Both the position numbers and the translations under genes were made by a program. Below are positions 1 through 15,846 of a stretch of DNA of 64,000 nt, piece after piece. The stretch is taken from positions 353,646 through 417,645 of the forward strand of contig NZ_KI273144.1 of NCBI RefSeq assembly GCF_000469585.1, given 5' to 3'. Positions within the stretch are counted from its first letter, which is position 1. Each line of letters opens with the position of its first letter. The notes under the pieces were generated by a model. It was not told the DNA's origin. It ran no database searches and saw nothing but the letters and a program-made list of their open reading frames with translations. Source of the DNA: Chrysiogenes arsenatis DSM 11915. GTDB lineage: Bacteria; Chrysiogenota; Chrysiogenetes; Chrysiogenales; Chrysiogenaceae.

Positions 1-651
1 GCCACCGCGCTTAAACGTCACCGGCCAGAAACAGCGGGAAAGCAGTCGCAGACCGTAGGGGTTGTCATACGTGGGAAAGTGGCGCGCAAACACGAACTTG
101 CCAAACGGCAACAACTCACCTGTTGGGTCGTTTGCGCTGATAAAGCGCGGCGCGCCAGTATCGTCAAAGCCAAACCAGCGGCGTGGTTTTGCCACCAGAT
201 TATCAATGCGCATCCGCCCCCCTGCGGCACGCCACAGAATTTCAATCGGGGTGTAGCCGTAGTACGGGGCGTCAAGGATCTCGCTGACAAGGTGGTACAG
301 GTCGATCCGCTCAAGGTCTTCCACCAGATCGCGGCGCAGTTTTTCGGCAGCGGGGGAGGGCTCTTCGTTATGCAGACTCCCCGCACGCCAGCGAAAGTCG
401 CGGCGCAGTGTCCCCAGCTTTCTGGTCTGCACCACGCTGGTGACGTGGGCATCGGCCATCAACCCTTCCAGCACGCGAGGACTATCGCCCCGCGCCAGCA
501 GTACCGGGTCAGGGTCGGGTAGTAGGCCAATAAAGGCACTAAAGTCCCACGCCGTGCTGCGGCTGGCTATCTCCTGCCCCAGCGCTTGGCGCTCAGAGCT
601 TTCGCGAAATTCTATAAATTCGTGCGGTGTGATCCAGAGACCCTTACTCAT
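1..651 (-). CDS. Phage portal protein, Mu gp29-like (DUF935), 3' end off window
   Basis: On the minus strand an open frame starts ATG at 651 and runs without a stop to position 1 (217 codons), so only the N-terminal half is present. The translation begins MSKGLWITPHEF and contains the block APYYGYTPIEILW and the stretch RRWFGFDD, typical of DUF935 portal proteins of Mu-like phages. The portal is the dodecameric channel at the head vertex through which the terminase pumps DNA. The start codon overlaps the terminase stop (ATGAGTAA), indicating translational coupling. The shorter plus- and minus-strand frames across this interval are shadows. The family call is from recognised sequence pattern, not from a search. 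Confidence 0.85.
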   Translation of the reverse strand, partial: MSKGLWITPHEFIEFRESSERQALGQEIASRSTAWDFSAFIGLLPDPDPVLLARGDSPRVLEGLMADAHVTSVVQTRKLGTLRRDFRWRAGSLHNEEPSPAAEKLRRDLVEDLERIDLYHLVSEILDAPYYGYTPIEILWRAAGGRMRIDNLVAKPRRWFGFDDTGAPRFISANDPTGELLPFGKFVFARHFPTYDNPYGLRLLSRCFWPVTFKRGG

Positions 652-2200
652 AAAACCCCCGTAGCATGGTGCGTGCCTGCCGTGGCACGGCAGAATGGAT
701 GCCATCCGAACCGTTCCCCTGATGGGTCTGTAATCCTGCGATGGCCATTTGCGAAGCATCAGGGCCGTCGTCATTCACCGACGGCGTGAGCAGGTAAATA
801 AACTGCTCGCGCAGTTTGTCTTGGTCGCTATGCCCACGCTCAAAGCGCAGCTTGCCGTACTCCCACAGGTACGAACACGTCCCTACAATCCGCCCCTCTT
901 TGTTGGTGTTATGGTGCACCGCCTGCCAAGGCAAGTAGCGCCCGACGCTTTTGGCGAAGGTCTGCATCGCTTCGTGCAGGAAATCCTTGAGCATGTTTTC
1001 TTCGATATACGCCACAGCGCTGCCGTAGGTTTCCTGCTGCGCGTAGGCGGCAGCGAACATTTCGCTGATGCTTTTTTTCTTGAGCCATGCATGGAGGCAG
1101 TAGAACGCCATCTGTTCTGGGTCGAGCCCCCACGTCACTACCGCGCGGTAGTCGTTGTTTTCCCCTGCTCGTGCCGACGGGTCGACCGCCGTTGCCACAA
1201 TGAGCGGCGAGCGGATGATGCGGGCACGCTCGTAATACTGTGCCTGTTCTTCGGGGAACGGACTGTCGGCCACCGCCACGCGGTTGCGCATTTCGCGGTT
1301 AAAGTCGAAGGTGCCCATGTCGCGCTTCTTCTTCATGAGCCGTTCCATCGGCCAGTTAGCAGGCCAAAGTGGCCGCTCCTGCGGGGTGCCTTCGTCTTGA
1401 ATGGCGTCGTACACTTTAGAGAAGTACAGCGGCTCGTTCGTCTCTTCGTCTGTCAGGGCAATCATTTGTGAAATAGCACTGCGAGGGTGAAAGAGGTTCC
1501 CTACTAGTAATGCGCGATACCCCTTGCCCAGCGATCCCAGCACTGAGCCGCGAATCCAGCTAATCAGCTTTTTTACGAGGCGCGGGTTTTCTACGTTGTC
1601 ATCGTTTTCCATGTCGTCGAAACGGACGTAGTCGGGGCGGTGTGGGCCGTTCTTGAGACCGCGCACCTTGTCGCGCCGTCCCCGTGCCAGCACCCAGATC
1701 CCATTGGATGTTTTAAAGTCGTCGTCGCTCCAGTGCTTCGTAGTAAGGTCGCCAAAGTCGTGGCGCAGGCGGACGTTTTCTTCTAGCTCCAACTTGAGCG
1801 CGACGGTGAACCCTTGCGCCTGTTCGTGCGTGTCGCTGATGAGCATGGCAAAGCGGCACAGCCCATAACAGATGGCGTGGAGCGGATCGCCAAAGGTAAA
1901 GAACGTCGACTTGGCGTGTTCGCGGGGAGCCCCAACGACGGCAAACTGGTCGCGCAATTCGGCTATTTCTGCCCACTCGTGATGGAAGTCGCCAAACTCT
2001 GTGGTGAAGTAGTGCGGCAGATAGGTCTGCATGAAAAACAACTTGTCGTGACGCGCGCTGGCAATGCGCTCCCGCTTCTTAGCGGGGGTGTCGCACTCAA
2101 AGGGGCTGACGCTCTCTTTGATGAACCCGCGCAGTTCGGCAACCTGTTTGTCATACTGCCCCTCGCTCATGCGGGGGCGTTTACGCATTACTGCTGCCAT
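644..2200 (-). CDS. Terminase large subunit, Mu gp28-like (TerL)
   Basis: 518 aa. This is the packaging motor: an N-terminal ATPase and a C-terminal RNase H-like nuclease that cuts and translocates phage DNA into the prohead. Visible features are a Walker A-like loop GAPREHAKST at residues 90-99, a Walker B-type segment RFDDMEND around residue 190, and a nuclease-type motif TAVDPSARAGE around residue 330 giving the first metal-binding aspartate. The length suits the family. The ATG at 2200 is preceded by AAGGAGCAAGGAC. Its 5' end overlaps the DUF1804 gene and its 3' end overlaps the portal, as expected for a head-assembly operon. In Mu-type phages this enzyme performs headful packaging that includes flanking host DNA. 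Confidence 0.9.
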   Translation of the reverse strand: MAAVMRKRPRMSEGQYDKQVAELRGFIKESVSPFECDTPAKKRERIASARHDKLFFMQTYLPHYFTTEFGDFHHEWAEIAELRDQFAVVGAPREHAKSTFFTFGDPLHAICYGLCRFAMLISDTHEQAQGFTVALKLELEENVRLRHDFGDLTTKHWSDDDFKTSNGIWVLARGRRDKVRGLKNGPHRPDYVRFDDMENDDNVENPRLVKKLISWIRGSVLGSLGKGYRALLVGNLFHPRSAISQMIALTDEETNEPLYFSKVYDAIQDEGTPQERPLWPANWPMERLMKKKRDMGTFDFNREMRNRVAVADSPFPEEQAQYYERARIIRSPLIVATAVDPSARAGENNDYRAVVTWGLDPEQMAFYCLHAWLKKKSISEMFAAAYAQQETYGSAVAYIEENMLKDFLHEAMQTFAKSVGRYLPWQAVHHNTNKEGRIVGTCSYLWEYGKLRFERGHSDQDKLREQFIYLLTPSVNDDGPDASQMAIAGLQTHQGNGSDGIHSAVPRQARTMLRGFYE

Positions 2201-2678
2201 GTCCTTGCTCCTTAAATGCCGTTGTCAGTGGATCAAAACTCTCCGCCAGTACTGCCAGTCCCGCGGGATCGTGCTCGCGCAACCAGCCGATAATAAATTG
2301 CAGGTTTTCCAGAAAGACCCGGGGACGGTCGTAGGCAGGAGCGGCTCCCGCCTGCTCCCAACGCTGCACCAGTGTGCCGAGCTTGGTAATGGCATCGAGG
2401 CTCCCCGCACTCAGGCTGCCCGCTTGGCTGGTTTCCAGTGCTGTGAGTTCGCGTTCAAACAGGTCGCGCAGCCGCTGCACATTAGTGCGCTTTTGCTGCC
2501 GCGCCCGATCCCAGTCGTCGTGCTCTTCGCTGCCGCGTCTGGTTTCCGCCTTCCACGCCGCCACGCTCTGGCGCGAAACCCCCAGCGCATCGGCAATCTC
2601 TGTTAGGCTTTTGCCGTCGGCGGTGTACATACGGAAAGCGACGTCGTAGAGCTTCCCCTTTGCCCCTTTTTCCGCCAT
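2181..2678 (-). CDS. DUF1804 phage protein, probable small terminase subunit
   Basis: 165 aa from the ATG at 2678, chosen because AAGGAGCTGTTCTG precedes it and because that ATG overlaps the upstream stop as ATGA; a longer frame upstream only reads through the neighbouring gene. The N-terminus MAEKGAKGKLYDVAFRMY is followed by a helix-turn-helix (SLTEIADALGVSRQSVAAWK, about residues 24-43), then a helical region. DUF1804 proteins sit directly upstream of the gp28-type large terminase in Mu-like phages, and an HTH protein in that position normally recognises DNA for packaging. The small-terminase role is inferred from position and HTH content. Confidence 0.75.
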   Translation of the reverse strand: MAEKGAKGKLYDVAFRMYTADGKSLTEIADALGVSRQSVAAWKAETRRGSEEHDDWDRARQQKRTNVQRLRDLFERELTALETSQAGSLSAGSLDAITKLGTLVQRWEQAGAAPAYDRPRVFLENLQFIIGWLREHDPAGLAVLAESFDPLTTAFKEQGHGSSNA

Positions 2679-2923
2679 CAGAACAGCTCCTTTTCCAGTC
2701 TGGCAATCTCGCCGCGCACGGCCTGTAACTCGCCCCAGTGCTGCACCAGATCGTCCATGAATGTGGCGAGTCTGGGGATCTCCAGATCTGCCACCGGAGT
2801 CAGCGCGGTATTGAGCCCACTGCGGATAGCGCCGCAATGCCCTTCTATTCGCAACATTAAGCGCTGCTGACGATCCTTGGCTTCTGCCAATCTGCCGCGC
2901 ATAGCGGCACGTTCTATACTCAT
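2678..2923 (-). CDS. Small helical phage protein of head operon
   Basis: 81 aa from ATG 2923 (GGAGTGGGGAAACG upstream). I do not recognise the family. It is charged and predominantly helical, with a C-terminal heptad-like stretch (ELQAVRGEIARLEKELF). It is coupled to both neighbours by ATGA overlaps, so it is translated with the DUF1804 protein and the upstream membrane protein. The position matches the small genes found between lysis genes and terminase in Mu-like phages. Function unknown. Confidence 0.7.
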   Translation of the reverse strand: MSIERAAMRGRLAEAKDRQQRLMLRIEGHCGAIRSGLNTALTPVADLEIPRLATFMDDLVQHWGELQAVRGEIARLEKELF

Positions 2924-3264
2924 CGTTTCCCCACTCCTTCCCGGGCAGCCGGGCACCACTGATTGTGTTCTATCTTCTGCACCATGGCTTCCAGTGTCCG
3001 TGTAGAGAGGGTGATCACCCCCGATAGATCTTCTGCCAGTCGCTCGTACCCCTTGACGAGCGAGACGTTGTCTTCGTAGTAGCGTGTCACCCGATCCATA
3101 TCTGCGCGGTAGACCTTGAGGACGTTATCAAGCTGCGCCTTGTGCTCAGCTAGCATCCGCTCCGTGCGGCGCTGATCGACATACCAGAACACCACCGCCA
3201 TGCCGGGCAAGCCCAGCGTACTGACCGTCAGCGACACGAACGCCAGCGGAATTCCCTCCAACAT
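2920..3264 (-). CDS. Phage protein with N-terminal TM and coiled coil
   Basis: 114 aa from ATG 3264, preceded by AAGGGGGAAATAGGC; a TTG seven codons upstream is possible but has a poorer context. Residues about 5-24 form a membrane helix (PLAFVSLTVSTLGLPGMAVV), followed by a long charged helical region. The architecture resembles the DUF2730-type small membrane/coiled-coil proteins at this place in Mu-like genomes, but the family assignment is tentative. It could also act as an inner-membrane partner in lysis, because it follows the lipoprotein gene by two bases. Confidence 0.65.
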   Translation of the reverse strand: MLEGIPLAFVSLTVSTLGLPGMAVVFWYVDQRRTERMLAEHKAQLDNVLKVYRADMDRVTRYYEDNVSLVKGYERLAEDLSGVITLSTRTLEAMVQKIEHNQWCPAAREGVGKR

Positions 3265-3266
3265 GC

Positions 3267-3500
3267 CTATTTCCCCCTTTTGCAATCGGCCAGCTCGTCA
3301 GTGAGCCAGCGTTCGTAGTCGTAGCGCTCCAGTAGCCATGCCGGAGTCACTTCATAATTGCCGCTCGCCAGCGGCGTGATCATCCGGTCGGCGGGGATTA
3401 CCACCACCGGGGATGGGCGGGCGGCGCAACTGCTCAAAATGAGCAGAAAGGCCATGGCCGTCGCGGCGAGCAAGATCTTCTGCAAAGGTGTGGCGATCAT
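3267..3500 (-). CDS. Small phage lipoprotein, o-spanin-like candidate
   Basis: 77 aa from ATG 3500 (CCGGAGGCGACCT upstream). The N-terminus is a clear lipoprotein signal, with hydrophobic core ILLAATAMAFLLILSSC and lipobox cysteine at about residue 25, followed by a short proline-containing mature part. About 150 bases of it overlap, in another frame, the gene at 3352-3591. An outer-membrane lipoprotein encoded overlapping a small TM protein is the classic Rz/Rz1 spanin layout. The spanin call is an inference from architecture; no homology was recognised. The ATG at 3521 would add seven basic residues and is less likely. Confidence 0.6.
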   Translation of the reverse strand: MIATPLQKILLAATAMAFLLILSSCAARPSPVVVIPADRMITPLASGNYEVTPAWLLERYDYERWLTDELADCKRGK

Positions 3501-3591
3501 AGGTCGCCTCCGGCGGAGCATTGCGGTGTGCCAGATACTGGCGCACCAGCATGCCCACCACCGCCAGCAGTGCCGCCAGCGCTTCCCACAT
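3352..3591 (-). CDS. Small phage TM protein overlapping lipoprotein gene
   Basis: 79 aa, ATG 3591, two bases after the upstream stop. It has an N-terminal membrane helix (EALAALLAVVGMLVRQYL) and a soluble tail with an AFEQLR-like segment (LSAHFEQLRRPP) that I associate with small proteins of Mu-like phages. Its 3' part is shared out of frame with the lipoprotein gene 3267-3500, so the pair could be inner- and outer-membrane spanin subunits. The tail is shorter than a typical Rz coiled coil, so this remains a candidate. Confidence 0.6.
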   Translation of the reverse strand: MWEALAALLAVVGMLVRQYLAHRNAPPEATYDRHTFAEDLARRDGHGLSAHFEQLRRPPIPGGGNPRRPDDHAAGERQL

Positions 3592-3593
3592 GG

Positions 3594-3812
3594 CTACTGC
3601 GCCTTGTCATGGGACACGTCCCAATTGATGGGCTCTTTCGTCATCAGGCGCAGCGCTACGTTGAGTGCAGCCAGGATGGACGTTTGTGCTTCCAGGCTAA
3701 TGACAAAGCCGGTGTAGCTCTGCACCACCAGCGCAATGATAGCCAGCAGGTTGATCCAGAACGTCTTACTCAGCCAAAAACGTTTCCCTGCGGTCGCTTG
3801 GTTCTGTGGCAT
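3594..3812 (-). CDS. Holin-like small membrane protein of phage
   Basis: 72 aa, start ATG 3812 with strong AAGGAG five bases upstream. The pattern W(L)SKTFWINLLAIIALV, a second hydrophobic segment (ILAALNVALRLMTKEPI) and a charged C-terminus match a widespread small phage membrane protein often found in lysis cassettes. It is the first strong ORF of the leftward late-type transcription unit and is followed by the lipoprotein/TM pair. A holin role is inferred from size, two hydrophobic segments and place. Confidence 0.65.
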   Translation of the reverse strand: MPQNQATAGKRFWLSKTFWINLLAIIALVVQSYTGFVISLEAQTSILAALNVALRLMTKEPINWDVSHDKAQ

Positions 3813-3829
3813 GTGTACTCCTTGGTCGG

Positions 3830-3916
3830 TTACGGGTTAGCAAATGTGAAAAGTAACAACGTGAAAGACGCTAGACGGGCCTTCGTGCACAGGGCGATGG
3901 ATGTGAAATGTTCCAT
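3830..3916 (-). CDS. Possible 28-residue hydrophobic peptide
   Basis: A very short frame, MEHFTSIALC...FTFANP, starts at ATG 3916 directly behind a strong Shine-Dalgarno sequence (GGAGGCAATC) and stops 17 bases before the holin-like gene. The C-terminal half is hydrophobic (RLASFTLLLFTFANP). It could be a leader peptide or tiny membrane peptide coupled to the lysis genes. Evidence is only the SD, position and composition. The rest of the 3917-4140 interval holds two terminators and no further gene that I can see. Confidence 0.3.
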   Translation of the reverse strand: MEHFTSIALCTKARLASFTLLLFTFANP

Positions 3917-4021
3917 GATTGCCTCCATGTTGCTGCTCACGTGTGACCCGCGAGCGCGTTACTACGAGAGCAACTGGTGGCGATCATAAGGGGAGATGGC
4001 TAAATAGTCTTTTGAACACCA

Positions 4022-4046
4022 ACAAAAAAACGGCTCTGGGAGCCGT
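4022..4046 (-). terminator. Rho-independent terminator (minus strand)
   Basis: A perfect 7-bp stem, ACGGCTC (4030-4036) with GAGCCGT (4040-4046) and a 3-base loop, is followed on the minus strand by a run of seven T. It is the second of two tandem terminators downstream of the cargo genes and separates them from the lysis/head genes. Confidence 0.8.
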
Positions 4047-4080
4047 TGTAGGTAATATACTCGTAACAAGAGGGGGAAAT

Positions 4081-4111
4081 AAAAAACCCCCGCGTCCGTG
4101 AGGGGCGGGGG
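4081..4111 (-). terminator. Rho-independent terminator (minus strand)
   Basis: CCCCCGC (4087-4093) pairs with GCGGGGG (4105-4111); on the minus strand the stem is followed by six T. It lies 30 bases after the stop of the 4-TM gene, so it ends the repressor-cargo transcript before the late region. Confidence 0.8.
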
Positions 4112-4140
4112 TGTGCTTGGTTTGCTATTGCAGCATATTG

Positions 4141-4647
4141 CTATTTGACATCAGCATCTGGGCTAATACCCTCCGCCTGTCTGCGATGTTCAATAACGGC
4201 ATCTATGCGCTCGCGCTGGATTCGCATGAGCGAACCTGGAAGCCGCAAGGATAAGATAAAAGCGAAGACGGCAAAAAATAAAAACACGCGCTCTACCCAA
4301 ATCCGTATAGCGTAATGCGTTGCAGGAATAAGTAGTGCAATAAATATACAAGCAAGGGTTATAAGGTACAGAACGAACATCCACTTATGCCGAGCAAGGC
4401 GGTTAGAAAGTGTTTTACGGTGAGCCTCCGCTATTCTCCATGTGCCAGGCGGCAAGAGGGCGGGGTCGCCAAGTAAGGCAATGATTGCCACCAAGAAACC
4501 AGCAAGGACGGAAAAAACGGTCACAATAACATTCATGGCGTTGCTATTCTCATGAATCAGCGGTTGCCCGTAGTACGAAGCTGCGATGGCCAATGCAAAA
4601 GAAACCGCCGTGAAAGTGATTTTTTTCCAGTCTAATTGCTGTTTCAT
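4141..4647 (-). CDS. Four-TM membrane protein of prophage cargo pair
   Basis: 168 aa. Four hydrophobic segments are visible at about residues 10-27, 39-60, 89-107 and 118-138, with a charged loop between TM2 and TM3 (RIAEAHRKTLSNRLARHK) and a charged cytoplasmic-type tail. I do not recognise the family. The start overlaps the stop of the 311-aa gene by ATGA, so the two are translated together. The pair lies in the region between repressor and lysis genes and is followed by its own tandem terminators, a typical place for lysogenic-conversion, superinfection-exclusion or abortive-infection genes. That role is inference. The base composition is lower in G+C than the early operon. Confidence 0.75.
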   Translation of the reverse strand: MKQQLDWKKITFTAVSFALAIAASYYGQPLIHENSNAMNVIVTVFSVLAGFLVAIIALLGDPALLPPGTWRIAEAHRKTLSNRLARHKWMFVLYLITLACIFIALLIPATHYAIRIWVERVFLFFAVFAFILSLRLPGSLMRIQRERIDAVIEHRRQAEGISPDADVK

Positions 4648-5579
4648 TGTGATAGCGTCCCATCCCTTTGCAGTGTTGTCATGTACGCCAGTACTGCGTT
4701 CATGACGTCATTATATACCACCGTGTTCCCCTCTAACCGCAACTGAACCTTTTCACTAACGCGCATCTGGCGAGCACTCAGGTGATTGCCCTTTCCTGTG
4801 ACAATTTTAAAGCCATCATCTTCGGGTTCGTCCGCTACGATCTTTTTTGCAATGTCTGCCACCCGACTCGCTGCCGTCAACTTGCTCTCTTTTTTCCGTG
4901 AGTCAAAAGAGATAGTAACACGTACATTCAGGTTTTCAATCCCATTTGGCGTAACATCAGACGCAAACATTCCCCGAATCTCTTGCGCAAGGGAACCGAA
5001 TAACTTCCTTTGGACAGTTGTCCTTTCTATATGCTCAACACTGGCGGAATACAGTGCTCCGCTGAGTTCGATCTCTTTTACCCCTTCGCGATTCAATATC
5101 CTAAGATTATCTGTATTTACAATAGGATCAACCGTGTAACTCTCGGCAAGCTCGTGCTGATCTACACTCAGCAGAACAGAAGACAGGTACGATGTTGCAA
5201 TAGATTCGTGCACTCCGCTCGGACACAGTATGACGTGGTTATTTTTAATCAACACAAAAATATCCCCGCTCAGGTAGTCGTGTCCGTCGGGCGGAGGACA
5301 TACACTCAGGTCAGTTGCTGGGCTTTGCGGTGACGGCTGCGGAATAATAGACGTTGGCTGGTTAGGCCTGTAGAGGCCGATATGCAAAAAGATGCCGCCA
5401 TTCTCTGCTAAAAAATACTTCAGCCCTTGGATCTTTCCGAGCCGATGCGGAAATGTTCTGTTTTCAGTGTTTGATAGCTTTTGATGTGCGTCCGTGATGA
5501 TTCGTTCGAGATCATTGGACTGCGATCTACTCCAAACAGCCCGACGATAGAACAGTGTGCGTGTGCATGTTAGTGACAT
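4644..5579 (-). CDS. Soluble 311-aa partner of 4-TM protein, unknown
   Basis: 311 aa, no signal peptide and no membrane segment. The N-terminal part is basic (RTLFYRRAVWSRSQS). A central beta-rich part includes SGDIFVLIKNNHVILCPSG. The C-terminal half is helical and lysine/glutamate rich. I recognise no catalytic motif. The start at 5579 lies close behind a purine-rich GGGGGGAAG stretch. It is coupled by ATGA to the 4-TM gene downstream. A soluble sensor or regulator acting on a membrane effector is one reading, consistent with prophage defence or exclusion modules, but nothing in the sequence proves it. Confidence 0.7.
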   Translation of the reverse strand: MSLTCTRTLFYRRAVWSRSQSNDLERIITDAHQKLSNTENRTFPHRLGKIQGLKYFLAENGGIFLHIGLYRPNQPTSIIPQPSPQSPATDLSVCPPPDGHDYLSGDIFVLIKNNHVILCPSGVHESIATSYLSSVLLSVDQHELAESYTVDPIVNTDNLRILNREGVKEIELSGALYSASVEHIERTTVQRKLFGSLAQEIRGMFASDVTPNGIENLNVRVTISFDSRKKESKLTAASRVADIAKKIVADEPEDDGFKIVTGKGNHLSARQMRVSEKVQLRLEGNTVVYNDVMNAVLAYMTTLQRDGTLSQ

Positions 5580-5629
5580 ACTTCCCCCCTTGTTATTTTG
5601 GTCATCTAATCCCCTTTACCCTGCCCCCT

Positions 5630-6088
5630 TCATCCCCGTAGAAAGTCAGTTCGCAATTTAATGTCAGGAATTTCAGAGATCGTCTCGTGCAGATATTTTA
5701 CGTCGCCTAACAAGACAAAACCGATGCCACCTTTAGTATTTTCACTACGATACATCAGCATTTCACTTAAGGGCTTTAATGTCCAAATCGTATCAGGTGA
5801 CAGCAGCTGCGCGTCATGGACAATAAACACAACGCTTTCACCTTTTTCGCCAACAGCTGCAATTAGCTGGCGCAACTGACGTACATTCTCCTCAGCTGCG
5901 CGCTTTGGCTTTCCACCTAATGCTGTAACTAATGCGCTCACAAAGCGATTCTTTGTCACACCTTTCTGCACGGCAACATCCACCAGTCGGTAGCCCGGTA
6001 TCGGGTGCTCCGACTCTGGTAACTGTTTTGCGACCACAAATCGTTGGCCCGTCACGGTGTGGAGAATCATCTCAAGCATTGCTGACAT
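5630..6088 (-). CDS. MuB-like ATPase fragment lacking Walker A
   Basis: 152 aa, ATG 6088 with AAGGAGCGAGCT upstream; an in-frame TAA upstream rules out a longer N-terminus. The C-terminal half resembles the Walker B and sensor region of MuB/TnsC-type AAA ATPases: VVFIVHDAQLL (Walker B with D instead of the usual DE/EE), then GFVLLGDVKYLH and LRTDF. The phage's own MuB has the parallel blocks IVLVIEEAH, VVLVGQSDPM and LRTDV. No P-loop is present. The protein sits between the repressor and the cargo pair, in the lysogenic transcript. A regulator or decoy of transposition is possible; so is a remnant that kept a structural role. Confidence 0.65.
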   Translation of the reverse strand: MSAMLEMILHTVTGQRFVVAKQLPESEHPIPGYRLVDVAVQKGVTKNRFVSALVTALGGKPKRAAEENVRQLRQLIAAVGEKGESVVFIVHDAQLLSPDTIWTLKPLSEMLMYRSENTKGGIGFVLLGDVKYLHETISEIPDIKLRTDFLRG

Positions 6089-6114
6089 AGCTCGCTCCTT
6101 GTTTCTTTAATTAT

Positions 6115-6129
6115 GCCGAACAGTTCGGC
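6115..6129 (-). other. Hairpin after repressor stop
   Basis: GCCGAA (6115-6120) and TTCGGC (6124-6129) form a perfect 6-bp inverted repeat with a 3-base loop that begins at the repressor stop codon. There is no T-run on the minus strand, so it may be a weak terminator, an RNA-stability element or a protein site between the repressor and the MuB-like gene. Confidence 0.35.
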
Positions 6130-6632
6130 TATTGTGTAATGCGTTCTTCCAAGGCTTTGACTCGTTGTTCCAACGCTTTGGTGTGCTTTTTAGTGCGCAC
6201 CATAAACTCTATCAATTCAACAGCAAGGAGCTGGTCGTCGCTGTCGAGTTCATCTAGCAATGTCAGTAATAGGCGCGATTGGCCAATACCAGTTTTTGGG
6301 GTGTGATCGGAGGCCGATTCGTATTCCCTCTCGGTCATTGTTCTACCAATAACAATACCGGACATTGTTTTCCCTAATCCGCTCTTGCCCATTATAGAGC
6401 CTAATCCACTCCACCGCTCCATCGGCCCCGCGCCGGTAAGGAGCCAGTCGAGTGAAATGTCATGACTATCTGCTATCTGTACACAAAGTGGGTAAGGTAC
6501 GTGATCCCGCGATTTCCAATTGCTAAGCGTCTGTCGATTAACGCCAGTCTCATTGCATAGCTCTGTGTCAGTGTTTACGCGCAGCGCATGCTTAATTCGG
6601 TCGATAATAGTTTCAGCAGCATTTTTATTCAT
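6129..6632 (-). CDS. CI-like phage repressor, no S24 peptidase domain
   Basis: 167 aa from ATG 6632 (AAGAGG upstream, long spacing); the longer frame to 6695 would run through the early promoter and is rejected. The N-terminal domain has a phage-CI-type helix-turn-helix (ELCNETGVNRQTLSNWKSRD, about residues 24-43) followed by SLDWLLTGAGP, the usual sequence at the end of this domain. The C-terminal third is a heptad-like helix (ALEQRVKALEERI) that would mediate oligomerisation. No Ser-Lys LexA/S24 peptidase is seen, so induction would not be by RecA-stimulated self-cleavage. It is divergent from the early operon and likely binds the GTGTAA-type sites between them. Confidence 0.75.
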   Translation of the reverse strand: MNKNAAETIIDRIKHALRVNTDTELCNETGVNRQTLSNWKSRDHVPYPLCVQIADSHDISLDWLLTGAGPMERWSGLGSIMGKSGLGKTMSGIVIGRTMTEREYESASDHTPKTGIGQSRLLLTLLDELDSDDQLLAVELIEFMVRTKKHTKALEQRVKALEERITQ

Positions 6633-6635
6633 ATT

Positions 6636-6682
6636 GTGTAATTTACCTCTTGACTTACCCGTACTGTGTAAATAATATACAC
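6636..6682. promoter_or_regulatory. Candidate repressor operators in divergent region
   Basis: GTGTA (6666-6670) and TACAC (6678-6682) form a perfect inverted repeat with a 7-base spacer lying across the -10 box of the early promoter. A second GTGTAATTTAC element lies at 6636-6646, between the -35 box and the repressor start. Repeated GTGTAA half-sites overlapping the promoter suggest operators for the CI-like protein or the gp16-like regulator. Assignment to a protein is inference. Confidence 0.5.
6650..6678 (+). promoter_or_regulatory. Early (transposition) operon promoter, sigma70
   Basis: TTGACT (6650-6655), exactly 17 bases, then TAATAT (6673-6678). This is close to the sigma70 consensus and points at the early operon, whose first gene starts 70 bases downstream. 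Inverted repeats overlap it, so it is probably the repressed early promoter of the phage. Confidence 0.8.
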
Positions 6683-6747
6683 GACATGAATACACGGTAG
6701 CGGTTTCGCTTTGTGTGTCAATAGGAAAAATAGGAGGTGCGCTGGTG

Positions 6748-6972
6748 ATGACGCAAAGACAAGTGCGGGCACGGCTGATGGAGCAGGGGACGAACCTGCA
6801 TCAATTTTCAAAGAAATACGGGTACTCGTACAACACGGTGCAGCAGATTGTCCGCCGCTGGGCAGGGCGGAGCGAACTGCCATGGGGTCGAAAATCGACC
6901 AAGATCATGCGCGATTTGAGTACGGAGATTGGTGTCGAGCTGATCCCTGGCATTTACAGCGATTCATTTTAA
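6748..6972 (+). CDS. Small DNA-binding regulator, BcepMu gp16-like
   Basis: 74 aa. ATG 6748 (or the adjacent GTG 6745) follows TAGGAGG; the upstream GTG at 6715 has no ribosome site. The protein has an atypical helix-turn-helix (LHQFSKKYGYSYNTVQQIVR) and ends in a conserved-looking VELIPGIYSD. It is the first gene of the early operon, the place of Ner in Mu and of gp16-like proteins in BcepMu-type phages. Such proteins damp early transcription or repressor synthesis. The family name is from pattern memory. Confidence 0.7.
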   Translation: MTQRQVRARLMEQGTNLHQFSKKYGYSYNTVQQIVRRWAGRSELPWGRKSTKIMRDLSTEIGVELIPGIYSDSF

Positions 6973-6982
6973 GGAGGACGAC

Positions 6983-7624
6983 ATGGAAGAGCAGGTAGTG
7001 ACGAGCATGGCGACGACGGAGCTTTTTTGGTTTGGCAATCATTCGGTACGGGTAGAGATGGACGGCGCAATGCCGTGGTTTAACGCCAATGATTTATGTG
7101 GGGTGTTGGAGTATGTGAACCCGCGCGAAGCGCTGGCGAAGCACGTTGACGGGGATTGCGTCACGAAACGCGACGCAATCGACGGCATGGGTCGCGTCCG
7201 CCAATCAAACTACGTCAGTGAGTTTGGTATGTATGCGTTGATTTTGGCGAGTCGCACGGACGCGGCGAAGCGTTTTCGTAAGTGGGTGACGAGCGAGGTG
7301 TTGCCGGAGATTCGCCGCACGGGGTGTTATGCGGGTGAGGCGATGGCACGGTTGGAGGCGTCGGATTTTATTGAAGAGGGCTACTTGCGGGGCAAGGCCG
7401 AGGGTATAGCAGAGGCGGCGCAGTTGGCGGTGGGGTTATTGCCGGAGCACCTGAAGCGGATTACGCGCTACCACACTATGGGGCTAACGACGCGTGAGGT
7501 TTGTAAGTTGTTAGGCCGTGATCGTTCAACGATCAAGCGGCATAAGCAGCGGTTGCGGGCGGCGGGGTTTATTGACAATGAGCATGGGGTGCTGATTGAC
7601 GAGTTGCCTCGGTTGTTTGTGTAA
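6983..7624 (+). CDS. BRO-N domain antirepressor-like protein
   Basis: 213 aa, ATG 6983 after AAGGAGGACGAC. Residues about 8-110 form a BRO-N domain: FWFGNHSVRV, WFNANDLCGVLEY, VSEFGMYALILASR, AKRFRKWVTSEVLPEIRRTG. This DNA-binding fold is common in phage antirepressors. The C-terminal part is different from the usual KilAC/ANT domain and has a helix-turn-helix (LTTREVCKLLGRDRSTIKRH) near residues 173-192. It may counteract the repressor or act as an early regulator. Confidence 0.8.
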   Translation: MEEQVVTSMATTELFWFGNHSVRVEMDGAMPWFNANDLCGVLEYVNPREALAKHVDGDCVTKRDAIDGMGRVRQSNYVSEFGMYALILASRTDAAKRFRKWVTSEVLPEIRRTGCYAGEAMARLEASDFIEEGYLRGKAEGIAEAAQLAVGLLPEHLKRITRYHTMGLTTREVCKLLGRDRSTIKRHKQRLRAAGFIDNEHGVLIDELPRLFV

Positions 7625-7638
7625 GGCGGGAGGAAAGG

Positions 7639-7935
7639 ATGGCACAAAAAACCTACACGCCGGTGATGAGCAGCTACAAGCTGATCGACATCATGGAGTT
7701 TTTACACCAGCAAAGTACGGCGGTGAGTGCGGCAGAGATTGCCCGTGGTTTAGAGCTGCCGCACGGGACGGTGATGAGTCACCTGAGTGTGCTTTTGGAG
7801 CGCAAGTGGGTGCGGATGAGTGGGGCGCTGTACGAGCCGGGCAACCGGATTAGCGCGCTGTATGCGGCGTATGTACAGGCACTGAAGCACAAGCGGCACA
7901 CGCTTGATGGCGAGATTGCGACACTGGGAGGGTGA
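7639..7935 (+). CDS. Winged HTH protein, IclR-type DNA-binding domain
   Basis: 98 aa, ATG 7639 behind GGGAGGAAAGG. The block YKLIDIMEFLHQQ, AAEIARGLELPHGTVMSHLS and LLERKWVRMSGALYEPG is the N-terminal winged helix of IclR-family regulators, without the effector domain. It is the third DNA-binding protein in a row in the early operon. Target and role are unknown. It may help switch from early to middle transcription. Confidence 0.7.
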   Translation: MAQKTYTPVMSSYKLIDIMEFLHQQSTAVSAAEIARGLELPHGTVMSHLSVLLERKWVRMSGALYEPGNRISALYAAYVQALKHKRHTLDGEIATLGG

Positions 7936-7936
7936 T

Positions 7937-8140
7937 ATGCAGGTGAATGAAGAGCAGGTAGCGGTGCTGGTTTCAGCCGATGGGACGTTGGGCGAGTTTT
8001 TGGCTCAGGTATATACAGCCAACGCCGCCACGCTGGCGGCGGCGTTGCGGCAACTGCGCGCGCTGCGCTATCGGGGGTTTGAGTGTGCGGTGATTATCAA
8101 TCGGCTACGGCAAATAAAACAGCAAGAAAGGGTGGCGTAA
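7937..8140 (+). CDS. Small early phage protein, unknown
   Basis: 67 aa, ATG 7937 two bases after the previous stop, with GGGAGGGTGAT upstream; a longer frame starting at 7904 has no ribosome site and overlaps the previous gene. It is alanine/leucine rich and helical (AATLAAALRQLRALRYRGFE), ending in basic residues. No family recognised. Its stop shares a base with the next start (TAATG). Confidence 0.6.
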   Translation: MQVNEEQVAVLVSADGTLGEFLAQVYTANAATLAAALRQLRALRYRGFECAVIINRLRQIKQQERVA

Positions 8141-9084
8141 TGGCACAGCGTAGAAAGCCGGAAGCGGCAATAGATTCGGTAGAGGTGGAGCGGGAGCAGG
8201 TGGTGGAGTCGGCGAATTTCCACGAGCGTCAGGTGGCGATGCATACGGCGGAGCTGGAGGCGGAGCACGATGCACGGCTGCGGCAGCGTGAGGAGCAGGT
8301 GGAGCGGGAGCAGAAGATTGCGGAGTGCCACGAGATGATTGGCCGCATTCAAGGGGTCAAGATGATCGCCGATTTCGCCAACGTTGGCGGTTTGATGTGG
8401 CTCAAGCAAGTCAAAGAAACCAAGCTTTACCGCGATCTCCCAAGCATAGGAACGTGGGATAAGTTTTGTAATCACATAGGATTGTCACGCCAAAAGGTGG
8501 ACGAAGATCTGCTTAACCTCGCAACATTCGGCGAACAATTTCTCGCCAACGTTGGCGGTTTTCAAGTCGGCTACCGCGATCTCAAAAAGCTCCGCCAACT
8601 CTCGGCAGCGGGCGAGGTGCAGGTGCAGGACGAGGTGGTGATGATTGGCGACGAGCAGATTCCGCTGGATTCAGATCATGCGGATGATTTACGGGCGGGG
8701 ATTGAGCGTATTTTGGAGCAGAACCGTAATCAGGCGGAGCAGTTAGCGCGTTTGCAAAAGAGTGTGGATGCGGCGGTGAAGGAGGAGACGAAGGGGCTAC
8801 AAGGGGAGGTGAAGGCGCTGATTAACGAGGTGAAGCGCCTGAAGCCGTATGACCCGGACGAGCAGGCGAAGGATTATTCGTTTGCGGTGGAGATGTTTCG
8901 GTCGTTGCAGGAGTGTTGTGCTTCGCTGGCGGCGAAGGCGGGGAAGCTGATGGTGGACGAGCGGGTGCTGGATGATCCGGTGTTGATGGGGCGGATCGAG
9001 GGGCATATTGCGACGGCGGAGCTGGTGGTGCGTGATGTGCGGCGGATGTGGGAAGAGCGGGTCAATTTATTTGATGAGGTGTGA
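8140..9084 (+). CDS. Coiled-coil early phage protein, unknown
   Basis: 314 aa from ATG 8140 (TAATG junction). The first 70 residues are a charged coiled coil rich in Glu/Gln. The middle (about 85-160) contains two related ANVGG segments separated by GTWDKFCNHIGLSRQKVDEDL, which looks like a DNA-binding helical domain. The C-terminal half is again helical with heptads. I do not recognise the family. It precedes the transposase, where Mu-like phages carry accessory early proteins. Codon choice in 8340-8620 is less G-rich than in the flanks, hinting that the middle domain has a different history. Confidence 0.65.
   Translation: MAQRRKPEAAIDSVEVEREQVVESANFHERQVAMHTAELEAEHDARLRQREEQVEREQKIAECHEMIGRIQGVKMIADFANVGGLMWLKQVKETKLYRDLPSIGTWDKFCNHIGLSRQKVDEDLLNLATFGEQFLANVGGFQVGYRDLKKLRQLSAAGEVQVQDEVVMIGDEQIPLDSDHADDLRAGIERILEQNRNQAEQLARLQKSVDAAVKEETKGLQGEVKALINEVKRLKPYDPDEQAKDYSFAVEMFRSLQECCASLAAKAGKLMVDERVLDDPVLMGRIEGHIATAELVVRDVRRMWEERVNLFDEV
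8376..8389. repeat. 14-bp palindrome, copy 1
   Basis: CGCCAACGTTGGCG is a perfect palindrome, and the surrounding 19 bases recur identically at 8543-8561. It codes for part of an ANVGG repeat in the coiled-coil protein, so it may be a coding repeat, a protein-binding site, or both. Confidence 0.6.
8544..8557. repeat. 14-bp palindrome, copy 2
   Basis: Second exact copy of CGCCAACGTTGGCG, 168 bases (56 codons) downstream of the first and in the same reading frame. Confidence 0.6.
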
Positions 9085-9088
9085 GGCG

Positions 9089-10681
9089 ATGGCACGTGCG
9101 ATTGATCCGGCTATGTTAGCGATGATGCAAGCGGACTGGCGCGCGGCTGGTGCGGGGATGCGTACGCGGGTGGTACAGCAGTGGGCTGAGCGTCTGGGGG
9201 TTTCGGTGGCGGCGTTATACCGCGCTCTGCCACGGCAGCGCACGCATGAAAGTTCGCGCAAGATTGAGGGGATTGAGGATGCTGCGCGGGTGGTGGCGGC
9301 GATTAAGTGTCGTCCGCCGGAGCATCGGGGGCGGCTGACAACGGAGCAGGCGCTGCGCTTAGCGGTGGAAAATGGGTCGTTGGAGCCGCGGTTTGGCGAG
9401 GTGCATCCGTCAACGTTTGATCGGGTGATTCGGGAGACGGGGGATCTGCGGCAGCGGCGGCGGGTGTGCCGGTTCCAAGCGGAGCGGCCAAACGAGTTGC
9501 ACCATGTGGATGCGTCGACGTCGAGTTGTTTCTATATCGCGAAGCGTTTGCCGGATGGGGAATACGTGTTGAAGTTGCACCGTGGCACAAAGGATTACAA
9601 GAATAAGCCGATTCCGGTGGATGGGCTGCGGCCTTGGGTCTACGGGTTGACGGATGATCATAGCGGGGTGCATGTGGCACGGTATGTGGCGGCGTGTGGC
9701 GAGAGCGCGGGGGACAATCTGGATTTTCTGGCGTGGGCATGGAGCCGTAATGAATGCAAGGAGTTTTTTGGGCTGCCAGAAAAGATCAAGGGGGATAAGG
9801 GGCCGATGATGTCGAGCGAGGGGGCGGTGGATTTTTTTGGCCGCCTGGGGGTGGAGATTGACCCGTCGGTGCCGCTGTCTAAGGAGGCTCACGGCAAAAT
9901 TGAGCGCCCGTGGCGGACGCAGTGGCAGCGGTTTGAGTTGCCGTTTTTTGTGGAGAGTAATTGGAAGTCGTTTGAAATCACCCTTTCGGAATTGAATCGG
10001 CAGTTTTTTATTTATCAGCAGGAGCTAAATGGGCGTGAGCATCGCTTCGAGCGGGGGGCGAGTCGCATGGATGCGTGGCGCGAGATCAGCCGCTACGGCG
10101 GCGCGGTGGAGTTGCCGGAGGATGCGATCCGCACGGTGGTGCGGCGTTGGAAGCGTAAGGTGGATCAGGCGGGGGTGCTTTCGCTGGAAGGGGTGCTGTA
10201 CGAGGTGAAGGGGCTGCATGATGCCTGGGTATTTGTGTACCAAGGGGTGTTTGAGCAGGCGATGGTGGTGGTGGATTGTGTTACTGGCCAGAAGTACGAG
10301 GTGGAGGATTTCCGTCCGAACAAGATTGGCGAGTTTACGGCGGCGCCGCATTCGCCGTACCAGAAGGCGGCGAAGGAAGCGGTGCAACTTGATGGGATGC
10401 ACAATTCTTTATATACGCAGGCGGTGGCGGTTGACGCGAAGTTAAAGCGGCTGCCGACGCGGACGAAGGAGGTTCGTGCTTTGGAAAATCCGCTGAATGT
10501 GGATGTGTATCCGGATGTGGCGGCGGCGTTACGGGATTTGCAGGCGATGTCGGGTTTGATTTTAACGGGTGCGTCGCGGGCTGAGGTGGCGCGATTGATT
10601 GAAGAGGCGGGTTGTTCACGCCGGTTTGTGGCGGAGTTGGCGGCGGATATTGAACACGAACGGGTGCGCGAGGCGCTATAA
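9089..10681 (+). CDS. DDE transposase (MuA-like)
   Basis: 530 aa from ATG 9089, behind GAGGTGTGAGGCG. This enzyme binds the phage ends and performs strand transfer for integration and replicative transposition. An N-terminal helical DNA-binding region with a DNA-binding-type segment (RLGVSVAALYRALPR, about residues 35-49) is followed by an RNase H-like core with D141 (LHHVDAS), D236 (IKGDKGP) and E272 (GKIERPW). The last two are separated by exactly 35 residues, the D-D(35)E signature. A Mu-type C-terminal beta-barrel region follows (about 380-460), then a helical tail. The length is shorter than E. coli MuA because the extra N-terminal enhancer-binding subdomain is reduced. Confidence 0.9.
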   Translation: MARAIDPAMLAMMQADWRAAGAGMRTRVVQQWAERLGVSVAALYRALPRQRTHESSRKIEGIEDAARVVAAIKCRPPEHRGRLTTEQALRLAVENGSLEPRFGEVHPSTFDRVIRETGDLRQRRRVCRFQAERPNELHHVDASTSSCFYIAKRLPDGEYVLKLHRGTKDYKNKPIPVDGLRPWVYGLTDDHSGVHVARYVAACGESAGDNLDFLAWAWSRNECKEFFGLPEKIKGDKGPMMSSEGAVDFFGRLGVEIDPSVPLSKEAHGKIERPWRTQWQRFELPFFVESNWKSFEITLSELNRQFFIYQQELNGREHRFERGASRMDAWREISRYGGAVELPEDAIRTVVRRWKRKVDQAGVLSLEGVLYEVKGLHDAWVFVYQGVFEQAMVVVDCVTGQKYEVEDFRPNKIGEFTAAPHSPYQKAAKEAVQLDGMHNSLYTQAVAVDAKLKRLPTRTKEVRALENPLNVDVYPDVAAALRDLQAMSGLILTGASRAEVARLIEEAGCSRRFVAELAADIEHERVREAL

Positions 10682-10685
10682 AAAG

Positions 10686-10713
10686 TGCCTCTGGGGAGGG
10701 ATTCCCAGAGGCA
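10686..10713 (+). other. Strong hairpin between transposase and MuB genes
   Basis: TGCCTCTGGG (10686-10695) pairs perfectly with CCCAGAGGCA (10704-10713) around an 8-base loop. There is no following T-run, so it is unlikely to be a simple terminator. It sits five bases after the transposase stop and 40 bases before the MuB start, where it could stabilise mRNA segments, attenuate, or serve as a processing site that sets the transposase:MuB ratio. Confidence 0.55.
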
Positions 10714-10753
10714 GGGTGCTGTGTTACCAAAACAAGAACTAGAGGGTATCTAT

Positions 10754-11680
10754 ATGCAGAGTATGACGCGTTTAGAGTTGTTTGTCAATCTTGGGTATAA
10801 GCGCGATCCGTTCAAGGATGCGGTGTTTGCGACGGCTGATGGTTTGCGGGTGATGCGGATTTTGACGATGGCGGTGGAGTCTCAGGCGATGGTGTGTATT
10901 TGCGGTGAGCGTGGGATTGGGAAGTCCAAGGCGATCACGGCGGCGCTTTCAAAGCTGGGGGTGCATCAGGTGCATGTGACGCGTGGTCAGAAGGAGCGGA
11001 TTACGATTGGCGATATTGAGTGTGCTTTGGTGCTTGATTTAGCGCCGGATGGTGAGTCGCCAAAGCGTGGTGGCGAAGCGCGTAGTCGGCAGGTACGGAG
11101 GATTGTGGGGGAGGTAAGCCGTAAGCGCAAGATTGTGCTGGTGATTGAAGAAGCGCACCGGATGCATAGTTCGACGTTGCGCAGTCTTAAAACGTTACGG
11201 GAGATTCAGTGGATGGGCAATAGCGAGTTGTTTTCGGTGGTGCTGGTGGGGCAAAGCGATCCGATGAGTCGTGCTGGTGTTTCCGAGGTGCGGTTGCGCA
11301 CGGATGTGGTGCGGATGAATGGGCTGTCGCAGGAGGAGGCGGCGGGGTATTTGTGCGCGGTGTTGCCGAATCATTTTACGGATGAAGTGGCAATGCGGGT
11401 GGCGGCGTTGTCGGCGGCACGGAACTTTTTAGAGTTGCAGGAGCGGGCGGTGGCGCTCTTAAATCTGGCGCTGGCGGATGGGCGCGAGGGGGTGAGTTTG
11501 GAGGATGTGGCGGTGTTAGCGGGGCGTGAGCAGGAGGTTTTGCCGCGTTCTGGTAGAGCGGCGGAACGGAAGCGGCCTGCGGCGAAGTCGGGTGATGTTG
11601 CGCTGCGTTCGGTTTTGGGGCGGCGTGCGGCTGCTGATGGTGTTGATGGTGACGAAAACGATATTACTCAGGCGGTGTGA
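10754..11680 (+). CDS. MuB-like AAA+ target-selection ATPase
   Basis: 308 aa. ATG 10754 has AGAGGG seven bases upstream; an ATG three codons later is an alternative. MuB-type proteins polymerise on target DNA with ATP, deliver targets to the transposase, and give target immunity. Walker A is GERGIGKS at residues 51-58, Walker B IVLVIEEAH near 127-135, then a sensor block FSVVLVGQS and an arginine-containing LRTDVVRM. The C-terminal tail is basic and low-complexity (RAAERKRPAAK). It is closer to the compact MuB/ExeA-like ATPases than to E. coli MuB with its separate HTH domain. Confidence 0.88.
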   Translation: MQSMTRLELFVNLGYKRDPFKDAVFATADGLRVMRILTMAVESQAMVCICGERGIGKSKAITAALSKLGVHQVHVTRGQKERITIGDIECALVLDLAPDGESPKRGGEARSRQVRRIVGEVSRKRKIVLVIEEAHRMHSSTLRSLKTLREIQWMGNSELFSVVLVGQSDPMSRAGVSEVRLRTDVVRMNGLSQEEAAGYLCAVLPNHFTDEVAMRVAALSAARNFLELQERAVALLNLALADGREGVSLEDVAVLAGREQEVLPRSGRAAERKRPAAKSGDVALRSVLGRRAAADGVDGDENDITQAV

Positions 11681-11682
11681 TA

Positions 11683-12297
11683 ATGGAAGATATGCGTGCT
11701 ATTGATTATATGAAGGATGGTAAAGGGCGGTTGGTGCCGATGTCGATGGTGAAGCCGATTGACCAGGCGCGCGATGTGCTGGTGCATGATCTGGTGAGAA
11801 AAGCACGGGCGATGCGTGACGATCTCAAGCGGTTCCGCGCGGATGTGTTTGCGGAGGTTGGCGCGTTTGTTGATTTGTCGGCGGGGGAATTTGGCGTAAG
11901 TCTCGGCGGGAAAAAGGGGAATATTACGCTCTATTCTTTTGATGGGTCACTGAAGGTGCAATTGGCGGTGGCGGATCATCTGGTGTTTGACGAGCGGCTG
12001 CAGGCTGCACAGGCGCTGATCGGTGAGTGCGTGGAGGAATGGTCGCAGGGGAGTCGCGACGAGATCAAAGCGCTGATTTCGGCAGCGTTCCAGACGGACA
12101 AAGAAGGTAAAATCAATACTGGTCGAGTGTTGTCGCTCCGTCGGATTGATATCAAAGACGAGCGCTGGCAGCGGGCGATGGTGGCGATTGGTGAGTCACT
12201 CACGGTAGTTGGGTCAAAATCATATATCCGGTTTTATGAGCGGGTGGGGGATTCGGATCAATACGTTGCGATTCCGCTCGATGTTGCGGCGGTGTAG
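11683..12297 (+). CDS. DUF3164 family phage protein
   Basis: 204 aa, ATG 11683, two bases after the MuB stop (the overlapping GTG 11677 is less likely). It matches the DUF3164 pattern found in the early region of Mu-like phages: an N-terminal MKDGKGRLVPMSMVKP segment, the middle GKKGNITLYSFDGSLKVQ, and the C-terminal KINTGRVLSLRRIDIKD...W. The molecular function is not established. Its constant place beside gemA and the transposition genes suggests an early DNA-transaction role. Confidence 0.8.
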   Translation: MEDMRAIDYMKDGKGRLVPMSMVKPIDQARDVLVHDLVRKARAMRDDLKRFRADVFAEVGAFVDLSAGEFGVSLGGKKGNITLYSFDGSLKVQLAVADHLVFDERLQAAQALIGECVEEWSQGSRDEIKALISAAFQTDKEGKINTGRVLSLRRIDIKDERWQRAMVAIGESLTVVGSKSYIRFYERVGDSDQYVAIPLDVAAV

Positions 12298-12299
12298 TC

Positions 12300-12980
12300 A
12301 TGGCGTTGGATTTGGCGACGCAGCGCAAGAAGTTGATTCGGGTGATTCATGTGGCGAAGCGCGATATGGGGCTGTCTGACGATGTGTATCGCGGGATACT
12401 GTTGGAAGCTGGCGGGGCTGAGTCGGCGGCTGATTTGAATTTATTTGCGCTCGAACGGGTGCTCAAGCATTTGCGAGCGCATGGGTTCAAGATTCGTCAT
12501 GCTCGTAAGGCGGATGGGTCGCCTGTCAAAAAGCAGAAGCGCTCGCGTCCGCTGGATGTGCGCGATGAGTCTCGCAAAATCAGAGCGCTCTGGTTGTTCC
12601 TGCACGAGATTGGGGTGGTGAAGGATGCATCGGAAGCGGCGTTAGCGGCGTATGTGAAGCGGATTTGCCGCGTGGATGCGTTGCAATGGACGAACGGTTG
12701 GATGCGGGATCGGTTGATTGAGTCGCTCAAGAAGTGGGCGATGCGGTTTTTGCCTGCGATCACAGATGAATTACTGGATGAGGTATCCCGCTCGAATGCG
12801 CGGCAAGAATTGGTACTGATGGCGCGGGCACGGCAGGCGGATGCGCGGGAGCGTAATACGTTTGTGCCATATCTGGAACTGTGGGCGCTGTGTATGTTCG
12901 CGCTAGGGCGTAAGTCTGTTTTTAATCAGGATTTGATTGATAGTGCGGCTATTTTATCGGCGTGCGAGGTGCGGTTATGA
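12300..12980 (+). CDS. gemA: GemA family regulatory protein (DUF1018)
   Basis: 226 aa, ATG 12300 directly after the DUF3164 stop. The N-terminus contains RKKLIRVIHVAKRDMGLSDD and YRGIL, the hallmark of GemA/DUF1018, followed by an LERVLKHLRAHGF segment and a C-terminal region with NGWMRDRLIE. In Mu, GemA affects host gene expression and DNA supercoiling-related functions. It is followed by the Mor-like gene with an ATGA overlap, the same order (gemA, mor) as in Mu. Confidence 0.85.
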   Translation: MALDLATQRKKLIRVIHVAKRDMGLSDDVYRGILLEAGGAESAADLNLFALERVLKHLRAHGFKIRHARKADGSPVKKQKRSRPLDVRDESRKIRALWLFLHEIGVVKDASEAALAAYVKRICRVDALQWTNGWMRDRLIESLKKWAMRFLPAITDELLDEVSRSNARQELVLMARARQADARERNTFVPYLELWALCMFALGRKSVFNQDLIDSAAILSACEVRL

Positions 12981-13345
12981 ATGATGTGGAGAAGGATTTT
13001 TACCCTGAGTTGTTTCGTGATTTGGCGGATAAGGCGGCACAGTTGCTGGTGAGCGAGGGGTTGGCGCCGGAGTTGGCGGATGATTTGGGGTACAAGTTTG
13101 CGGAGTTGTTGCGGATGGATTGGTCGGGTGAGCAGTTTTATTTACCGAAGGGTGTCCGTTTTGAGTTGCATAAGCGCGATCTGGAGATGTTCAAGCGGTT
13201 TAATGGGCGGAATTATTCGGAGTTGTCGCGGTTGTACGGGATTTCAACGCGGCAGGTGCGCAAGCGGATTAACGATGTGCGGGTGGCGCTACTAGCAAAG
13301 CAGCCGTCGCTATTTGATGCGCCGAGCGCGTCGGAGGTGGGGTGA
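12977..13345 (+). CDS. Mor/C-family transcription activator
   Basis: 122 aa from ATG 12977 (ATGA overlap with gemA). The N-terminus LFRDLADKAAQLLV and the C-terminal helix-turn-helix YSELSRLYGISTRQVRKRIN (residues about 80-99) are typical of the Mor/C family, which turns on middle or late phage promoters as a dimer. It is the likely activator of the leftward lysis and head genes. Proteins of this family recognise imperfect dyads upstream of promoters with poor -35 boxes. Confidence 0.85.
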   Translation: MNDVEKDFYPELFRDLADKAAQLLVSEGLAPELADDLGYKFAELLRMDWSGEQFYLPKGVRFELHKRDLEMFKRFNGRNYSELSRLYGISTRQVRKRINDVRVALLAKQPSLFDAPSASEVG

Positions 13346-13458
13346 TGTGGTTTCTGGCTGGTTTTACGCTGGGGGCGTTGGTGGTTTGGGTGGTGTGCGA
13401 GGTGGTGTTTTATTGTCGCTGGCGGCGGTTTTATGGTCAAAGGAGGGTGCGGTTATGA
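13345..13458 (+). CDS. 37-residue single-TM protein
   Basis: A short frame, MWFLAGFTLGALVVWVVCEV..., starts at ATG 13345 overlapping the Mor stop (TGATG) and ends at 13458 overlapping the next start (ATGA). It is one membrane helix with a basic C-terminus (RWRRFYGQRRVRL). Tight coupling on both sides and a GGAGGTGGGGTG ribosome site make it a probable real gene. Function unknown. Confidence 0.6.
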   Translation: MWFLAGFTLGALVVWVVCEVVFYCRWRRFYGQRRVRL

Positions 13459-13652
13459 CTGGGTATCGTTACACGGAAAAGGGGTCTGATCGTTCGTGCG
13501 TGGTGTGTAAATGGTCGTTTAATCAGAAATCTTTTCGCGGCAAGGTGAATTTGCGTTGTGATCAGCACTCGGGGTATCGGGTGGCACGCGATAGTATTTG
13601 CGATATGTTTATCGCGCGCGTGGTGGAGGATGAGCGCAAGGGGAGTGCATGA
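13455..13652 (+). CDS. Small Cys-rich (zinc-ribbon-like) phage protein
   Basis: 65 aa from ATG 13455 (ATGA overlap; AAAGGAGGGTGCGGTT upstream). It has a CxxC pair (SCVVCKW) followed by RCDQH, giving a possible C-C-C-H metal site. Positively charged overall. No family recognised. It is coupled to the downstream DnaC-like gene by another ATGA overlap, so it could be an accessory of replication. Confidence 0.6.
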   Translation: MTGYRYTEKGSDRSCVVCKWSFNQKSFRGKVNLRCDQHSGYRVARDSICDMFIARVVEDERKGSA

Positions 13653-15171: not shown

Positions 15172-15184
15172 ATGGGGGTGCGTT

Positions 15185-15661: not shown

Positions 15662-15846
15662 TGATTATTGGCATTGTTCGGATCACGGCGCGGGATATTT
15701 TAATGGTTGTAGCAGCAGCGGCAGCCACTATCGTTACTGTTGCGGTGCTCGTGTATGGAGCAAGCACGTTTACCTATCATTTTTGGTACAAGCATTTGGT
15801 GAAGCAAACTGTTCGGGAAATGGTAGTAGACGAATCATTAAAATAG
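15661..15846 (+). CDS. Small single-TM protein after endolysin
   Basis: 61 aa, ATG 15661 overlapping the endolysin stop (TGATG), with GGGAGGCG upstream. It has one long hydrophobic segment (ILMVVAAAAATIVTVAVLVY) and a charged C-terminus. It is the last gene of the phage before the terminator and right end. A holin or pinholin partner of the endolysin is possible from position and topology; no family was recognised. Confidence 0.6.
   Translation: MIIGIVRITARDILMVVAAAAATIVTVAVLVYGASTFTYHFWYKHLVKQTVREMVVDESLK

Follow-up and report, generated by a model that had tools for sequence, protein, structure and literature searches.

A degenerate, probably ATP-blind MuB-type AAA+ core encoded downstream of the repressor in a Mu-like prophage of Chrysiogenes arsenatis

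Analyzing a 64,000-nucleotide stretch of the Chrysiogenes arsenatis DSM 11915 genome (the window), we found that an ORF of 152 amino acids with an ATG start, on the minus strand at 5630-6088, encodes what its sequence marks as a degenerate, probably ATP-blind core of the MuB type, carried as lysogeny cargo by a Mu-like prophage. This arrangement, whose protein product we call P0001, is known from one genome alone. As accessory cargo, such a MuB/TnsC-type core could damp transposition by docking on MuB-type oligomers, a reading that we put forward tentatively and at rather less than an even chance.

The P0001 gene is real. Its frame has neither frameshifts nor internal stops, the translation signal AAGGAG is in place as a Shine-Dalgarno sequence (6095-6100, minus strand) with a spacer of 6 nt to the ATG, and just six codons are open in frame upstream of that ATG, in agreement with the proper ribosome site and upstream in-frame stop described in the initial annotation. 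The codon-position composition is that of a coding gene and resembles that of the operon neighbors. The GC3 value of P0001 (0.47) matches the values of the repressor (0.48) and the cargo (0.48 to 0.49 with the repressor), not those of the MuB (0.64) or transposase (0.69) genes, and this speaks against recent copying from the neighboring MuB. In addition, the flanking genes on both sides are just 40 to 50 nt away, leaving no space for MuB remnants.

Homology to MuB is found at several levels. In a pairwise BLASTP comparison, P0001 and the window's own MuB (10754-11680) share 29% identity across the Walker B/sensor half (E 9e-9), a whole-genome tblastn search matches it to MuB at E 8.5e-5, and it matches Pfam AAA_22 at E 3.7e-5 with 24.5 bits, slightly below the Pfam cut-off of 27 bits. 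These scores place the likeness above chance and bear out both the MuB-type AAA+ homology and the resemblance to the Walker B/sensor part that had been noticed by eye. A phmmer search of P0001 against the PDB gave no match, and PADLOC and NCBIfam returned nothing useful for this protein. P0001 is roughly equidistant from all MuB and ExeA-like ATPases, and a phylogenetic tree failed to place it, giving it a very long branch (8.3). Like phage Mu MuB and other MuB-type ATPases (PHROG 296; PDB 8xvb), it has the AAA+ alpha/beta core, is encoded in the same prophage as a MuB, and conserves the stretches KPKR..E..RQ, T-LK-L-E, and LRTD; unlike them, it has lost the Walker A and B residues, lacks the N-terminal part and the lid domain, and has a gene presumably read with the repressor instead of the transposase. 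It shares the AAA_22 domain with ExeA/AAA_22 ATPases, as well as DAQ and KPKR-AE stretches with some of them, but the members found are full-length with an intact P-loop.

The predicted structure points the same way. AlphaFold2 with a 33-row alignment gave a model with pLDDT 76.8 and pTM 0.75, in which the order of strands and helices is that of an AAA+ core; this model depends on the alignment of MuB relatives, as single-sequence AlphaFold was uninformative (pLDDT 38). The first 27 residues are poorly predicted, and around the Walker A position the strand 7-9, loop, and helix 15-22 are weak (pLDDT about 50). Because of this weak N terminus and the failure without an alignment, the fold assignment rests equally on homology and on the model. 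The best Foldseek matches are ORC2/Cdc6 and TnsC (7rzy, E 6e-5; 7plh, E 7e-5), and a profile built from alignment A5 reaches the solved Mu MuB structure 8xvb at E 0.011. Thus, as modeled with its relatives, P0001 is predicted to have an AAA+ fold of the initiator/TnsC type; a fold unrelated to AAA ATPases, the outcome that the initial annotation had named as speaking against its reading, did not appear in this model. TnsC of Tn7-like elements and CASTs is its best solved transposition-related structural match, but TnsC is an ATP-binding protein that assembles into rings or filaments, whereas P0001 has no intact ATP site.

We read the motif positions from alignments A1 and A3-A5 (up to 40 MuB-type cores) and from the column table of A5, which has 33 rows, that is, P0001 and 32 relatives. 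In the alignments with MuB relatives, residues 3-9 align to the beta-1 strand preceding Walker A, and residues 9-16, LHTVTGQR (6041-6064, minus strand), fall on Walker A itself (family GExGxGKS/T), where the window's MuB has GERGIGKS and P0001 retains a single glycine. The P-loop is thus degenerate rather than absent, which corrects the earlier view that the protein starts after Walker A. At the Walker B strand, residues 85-93, SVVFIVHDA (5810-5836, minus strand; family VLVIEEA; strand 85-91 in the model), IEEA is present in 32/32 relatives of A5 and is replaced by VHDA in P0001 (EE to HD). The sensor 1 position, residues 128-129 (5702-5707, minus strand), reads GD where the family has GQ, and an aspartate is able to serve as sensor 1 (PMC5039278). 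The cis residues of the family that are gone from P0001 are G9, G12, K15, S16, E91, E92, and Q129. What is kept is R146 (5651-5653, minus strand), invariant in A5 and lying in the loop after alpha-4; in AAA+ proteins, the arginine finger after alpha-4 acts on the adjacent subunit (PMC5039278), and by this analogy R146 is a conserved family arginine at the arginine-finger position. Conserved positions are kept at 1/6 of catalytic and 10/18 of other sites, a difference that is not significant (about p 0.12, calculated by hand from the A5 columns). The N-terminal part is absent, since the protein starts at beta-1, and so is the lid, since it stops six residues after R146. P0001 is therefore probably ATP-blind, as judged from the aligned sequences, in which both motifs of its ATP site, Walker A and Walker B, are lost. 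This supports the proposal of a catalytically dead MuB relative and adds the degeneracy of Walker B to it. With cis residues lost and, according to the model, the fold and the arginine-finger position retained, P0001 fits a pseudo-ATPase (AAA+-like) subunit. Orc2 and Orc3 are AAA+-like subunits of ORC without ATPase residues; like P0001, they keep the AAA+ fold and have lost the residues for ATP hydrolysis, and they work within a mixed oligomer (PMC5291709). They are, however, eukaryotic and fixed subunits of their complex, whereas an oligomer containing P0001 would be hypothetical.

The gene lies 40 nt downstream of, and on the same strand as, a CI-type repressor gene (6129-6632 from its likely ATG, minus strand; Phage_CI_repr, 6.1e-19). 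The minus-strand gene order is repressor, P0001, P0004, and membrane protein; past its final gene, this series closes with a strong intrinsic terminator-like hairpin with a T run (4029-4047, minus strand), and no minus-strand terminator-like site was found between the repressor and P0001. The claimed linkage to the repressor holds on these grounds, and we infer that P0001 is co-transcribed with it in the lysogen. In the interval between the repressor stop and P0001, at 6115-6129, lies the perfect 15-bp palindrome GCCGAACTGTTCGGC, the sole exact copy in the window and a candidate operator or attenuator. The intact MuB-type ATPase of the prophage (10754-11680, plus strand; AAA_22, 3.7e-14; phrog_296 'DNA transposition protein', 1.6e-14) is encoded behind a MuA-type transposase (9080-10681, plus strand; phrog_310 transposase, 1.5e-23), whereas P0001 is not part of this early operon, its gene following the repressor on the other strand. 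Downstream of P0001 lies a separate cargo cassette (4141-5607, minus strand) comprising P0004, a phrog_26543-type protein (4644-5579), and the membrane protein (4141-4647). A second prophage in this genome carries a 96% identical copy of the cassette (L018:12162-13628), there without P0001 and behind an unrelated S24-type repressor; P0001 as a member of this cassette was rejected on that account.

How might such a core act? MuB acts as ATP-dependent filaments (PMC7350765), making a subunit without an ATP site a natural cap, and each ATP site combines cis residues from one subunit with an arginine from the next (PMC11208146; PMC5039278). In the mechanism we propose, P0001 would be transcribed together with the repressor during lysogeny, and its R146 face would dock on an ATP-bound MuB-type subunit of its own prophage or of an incoming relative. 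Docked in this way, it would cap the oligomer, as the next subunit would find no ATP site. The resulting MuB filaments would be shorter, and transposition would be damped in lysogeny or superinfection. Expression, binding to MuB, and inhibition are all presumed steps here. Retention of R146 is compatible with the initial suggestion of immunity or dampening by mixing into MuB filaments. The narrower version, in which P0001 is a dedicated decoy that uses arginine-finger capping to block transposition of its own or superinfecting Mu-like phages, seems to us unlikely; to our knowledge, a MuB-decoy immunity factor of this kind has not been described in Mu-like phages. Tn5 Inh and P-element KP are truncated transposition proteins that act as inhibitors. 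The likeness is one of proposed logic only, a shortened relative poisoning the active one; those inhibitors derive from transposases, whereas P0001 is of MuB type and its inhibition presumed. Speaking against capping are the failure to find orthologues, the dependence of the model on an alignment of MuB relatives, the lack of a significant excess of losses at catalytic positions, the missing MuB N-terminal and lid parts, and the ability of aspartate to be sensor 1. Moreover, MuB, TnsC, and IstB can go on supporting some activity when their ATPase is mutated (PMC11208146), which means that an inactive subunit is not necessarily a poison. Should P0001 bind MuB, an AAA+ transposition helper would have a natural dominant-negative regulator, and P0001 would offer a ready tool for studying how MuB/TnsC filaments are initiated and terminated.

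Searching for the gene elsewhere, we found no P0001 orthologue in INPHARED phages by tblastn and none in PLSDB plasmids by tblastn, where one chance match fell in ligA. Pattern scans recovered only the window's own prophage from IMG/VR and nothing from GTDB genomes. Among about 100 relatives of the host and 391 relatives of the host of a sibling prophage, all searched genome-wide, the only matches were intact MuB- or ExeA-like ATPases, with no P0001 orthologue in either set. Hence, neither the gene nor its position is conserved in the searched collections. The sibling Mu-like prophages have a MuB 46 to 71% identical to the window's, and each whole sibling record holds at most one match, its MuB, with no second AAA gene. 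Behind their repressors, the slot is filled by other genes, named by eye as lipoprotein-like, HNH-like, and membrane proteins; P0001 is thus cargo in a variable slot. The same gene was thus not seen beside the repressors of related prophages, where the initial annotation had proposed to look for it; unrelated cargo stands there instead.

This variable slot also leaves room for P0001 as a functional pseudo-ATPase with a partner other than MuB, for example, as an adaptor or sensor serving the repressor or another accessory or defense protein. The unrelated cargo of the siblings fits such a role, as does a GC3 like that of the lysogeny genes and unlike that of MuB, and the roughly equal distance to all MuB/ExeA-like ATPases gives P0001 no privileged relation to the MuB of this prophage. 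On the other hand, the cassette occurs without P0001 in the second prophage, so P0001 is not its obligate partner, and PADLOC finds nothing; we regard this alternative as rather doubtful.

The presence in a single genome raises the question of whether P0001 is a working gene at all. It could be a functionless relic, a truncated and degenerating AAA+ gene of an unsampled lineage whose C-terminal end was cut when the cassette arrived. Besides its restriction to this genome, the loss of every ATP-site motif and of both flanking domains and the branch length of 8.3 favor this explanation, and the cassette border at 5607, set by the 96% identical copy, lies 23 nt downstream of the P0001 stop codon, which makes a recent truncation plausible. 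Against it, the frame is open with a good Shine-Dalgarno sequence and ends cleanly at domain borders, and the neighbors, 40 to 50 nt away, leave MuB remnants no room. When three MuB cores were subjected to simulated neutral substitution down to 27% identity, the frame stayed open in 0.5 to 0.7% of runs, in a simulation that ignores indels. An open frame in fewer than 1% of neutral-decay runs indicates that P0001 did not arise by fresh decay of a MuB copy, and most of its divergence probably arose under coding constraint. A gene that diverged while it still worked and was truncated only recently would still fit, and the simulation is compatible with both a working pseudo-ATPase and a lately truncated, once-working AAA gene of an unsampled lineage. 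The decaying fragment found only here, which the initial annotation had set against its own idea, is therefore borne out in its confinement to one genome and weakened in its decay, since plain decay would seldom leave a frame open at about 27% identity. We give the relic rather less than an even chance, the same as the capping reading; if it is right, P0001 is merely a curiosity of one prophage.

A last candidate was a split AAA+ ATPase, with a P-loop GKSGLGKT from the repressor linker and the remainder from P0001. The Gly-rich linker of the repressor (about 6360-6390) contains GKSGLGKT, a perfect Walker A pattern, and gives a weak AAA_22 score (E 0.027) with no significant stretch. The linker of a homologous sibling repressor (L020), however, is Gly-rich without GK[ST], so the pattern is probably a chance one, and P0001 has its own degenerate Walker A position, leaving nothing missing to supply. 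We rejected this explanation as highly improbable.

Several minor observations concern the wider locus and its relatives. Within 644-15846 of the window, the late genes are minus-strand and the early genes plus-strand, running away from the repressor, while in the sibling L012, late and early genes run in the same direction and the terminase-region proteins match the window's minus-strand genes. Sibling slots with differing accessory genes are L090:11040-15582, L091:5628-6546, and L092:5387-6353. The occurrence of the P0004 cassette behind two unrelated repressors in one genome suggests recent movement of lysogeny cargo, perhaps serving superinfection exclusion or defense. The contig of the second prophage (L018) ends in IS genes (4-1973 and 19091-19870), identified by eye as IS21-type IstA/IstB and an IS256-like transposase.
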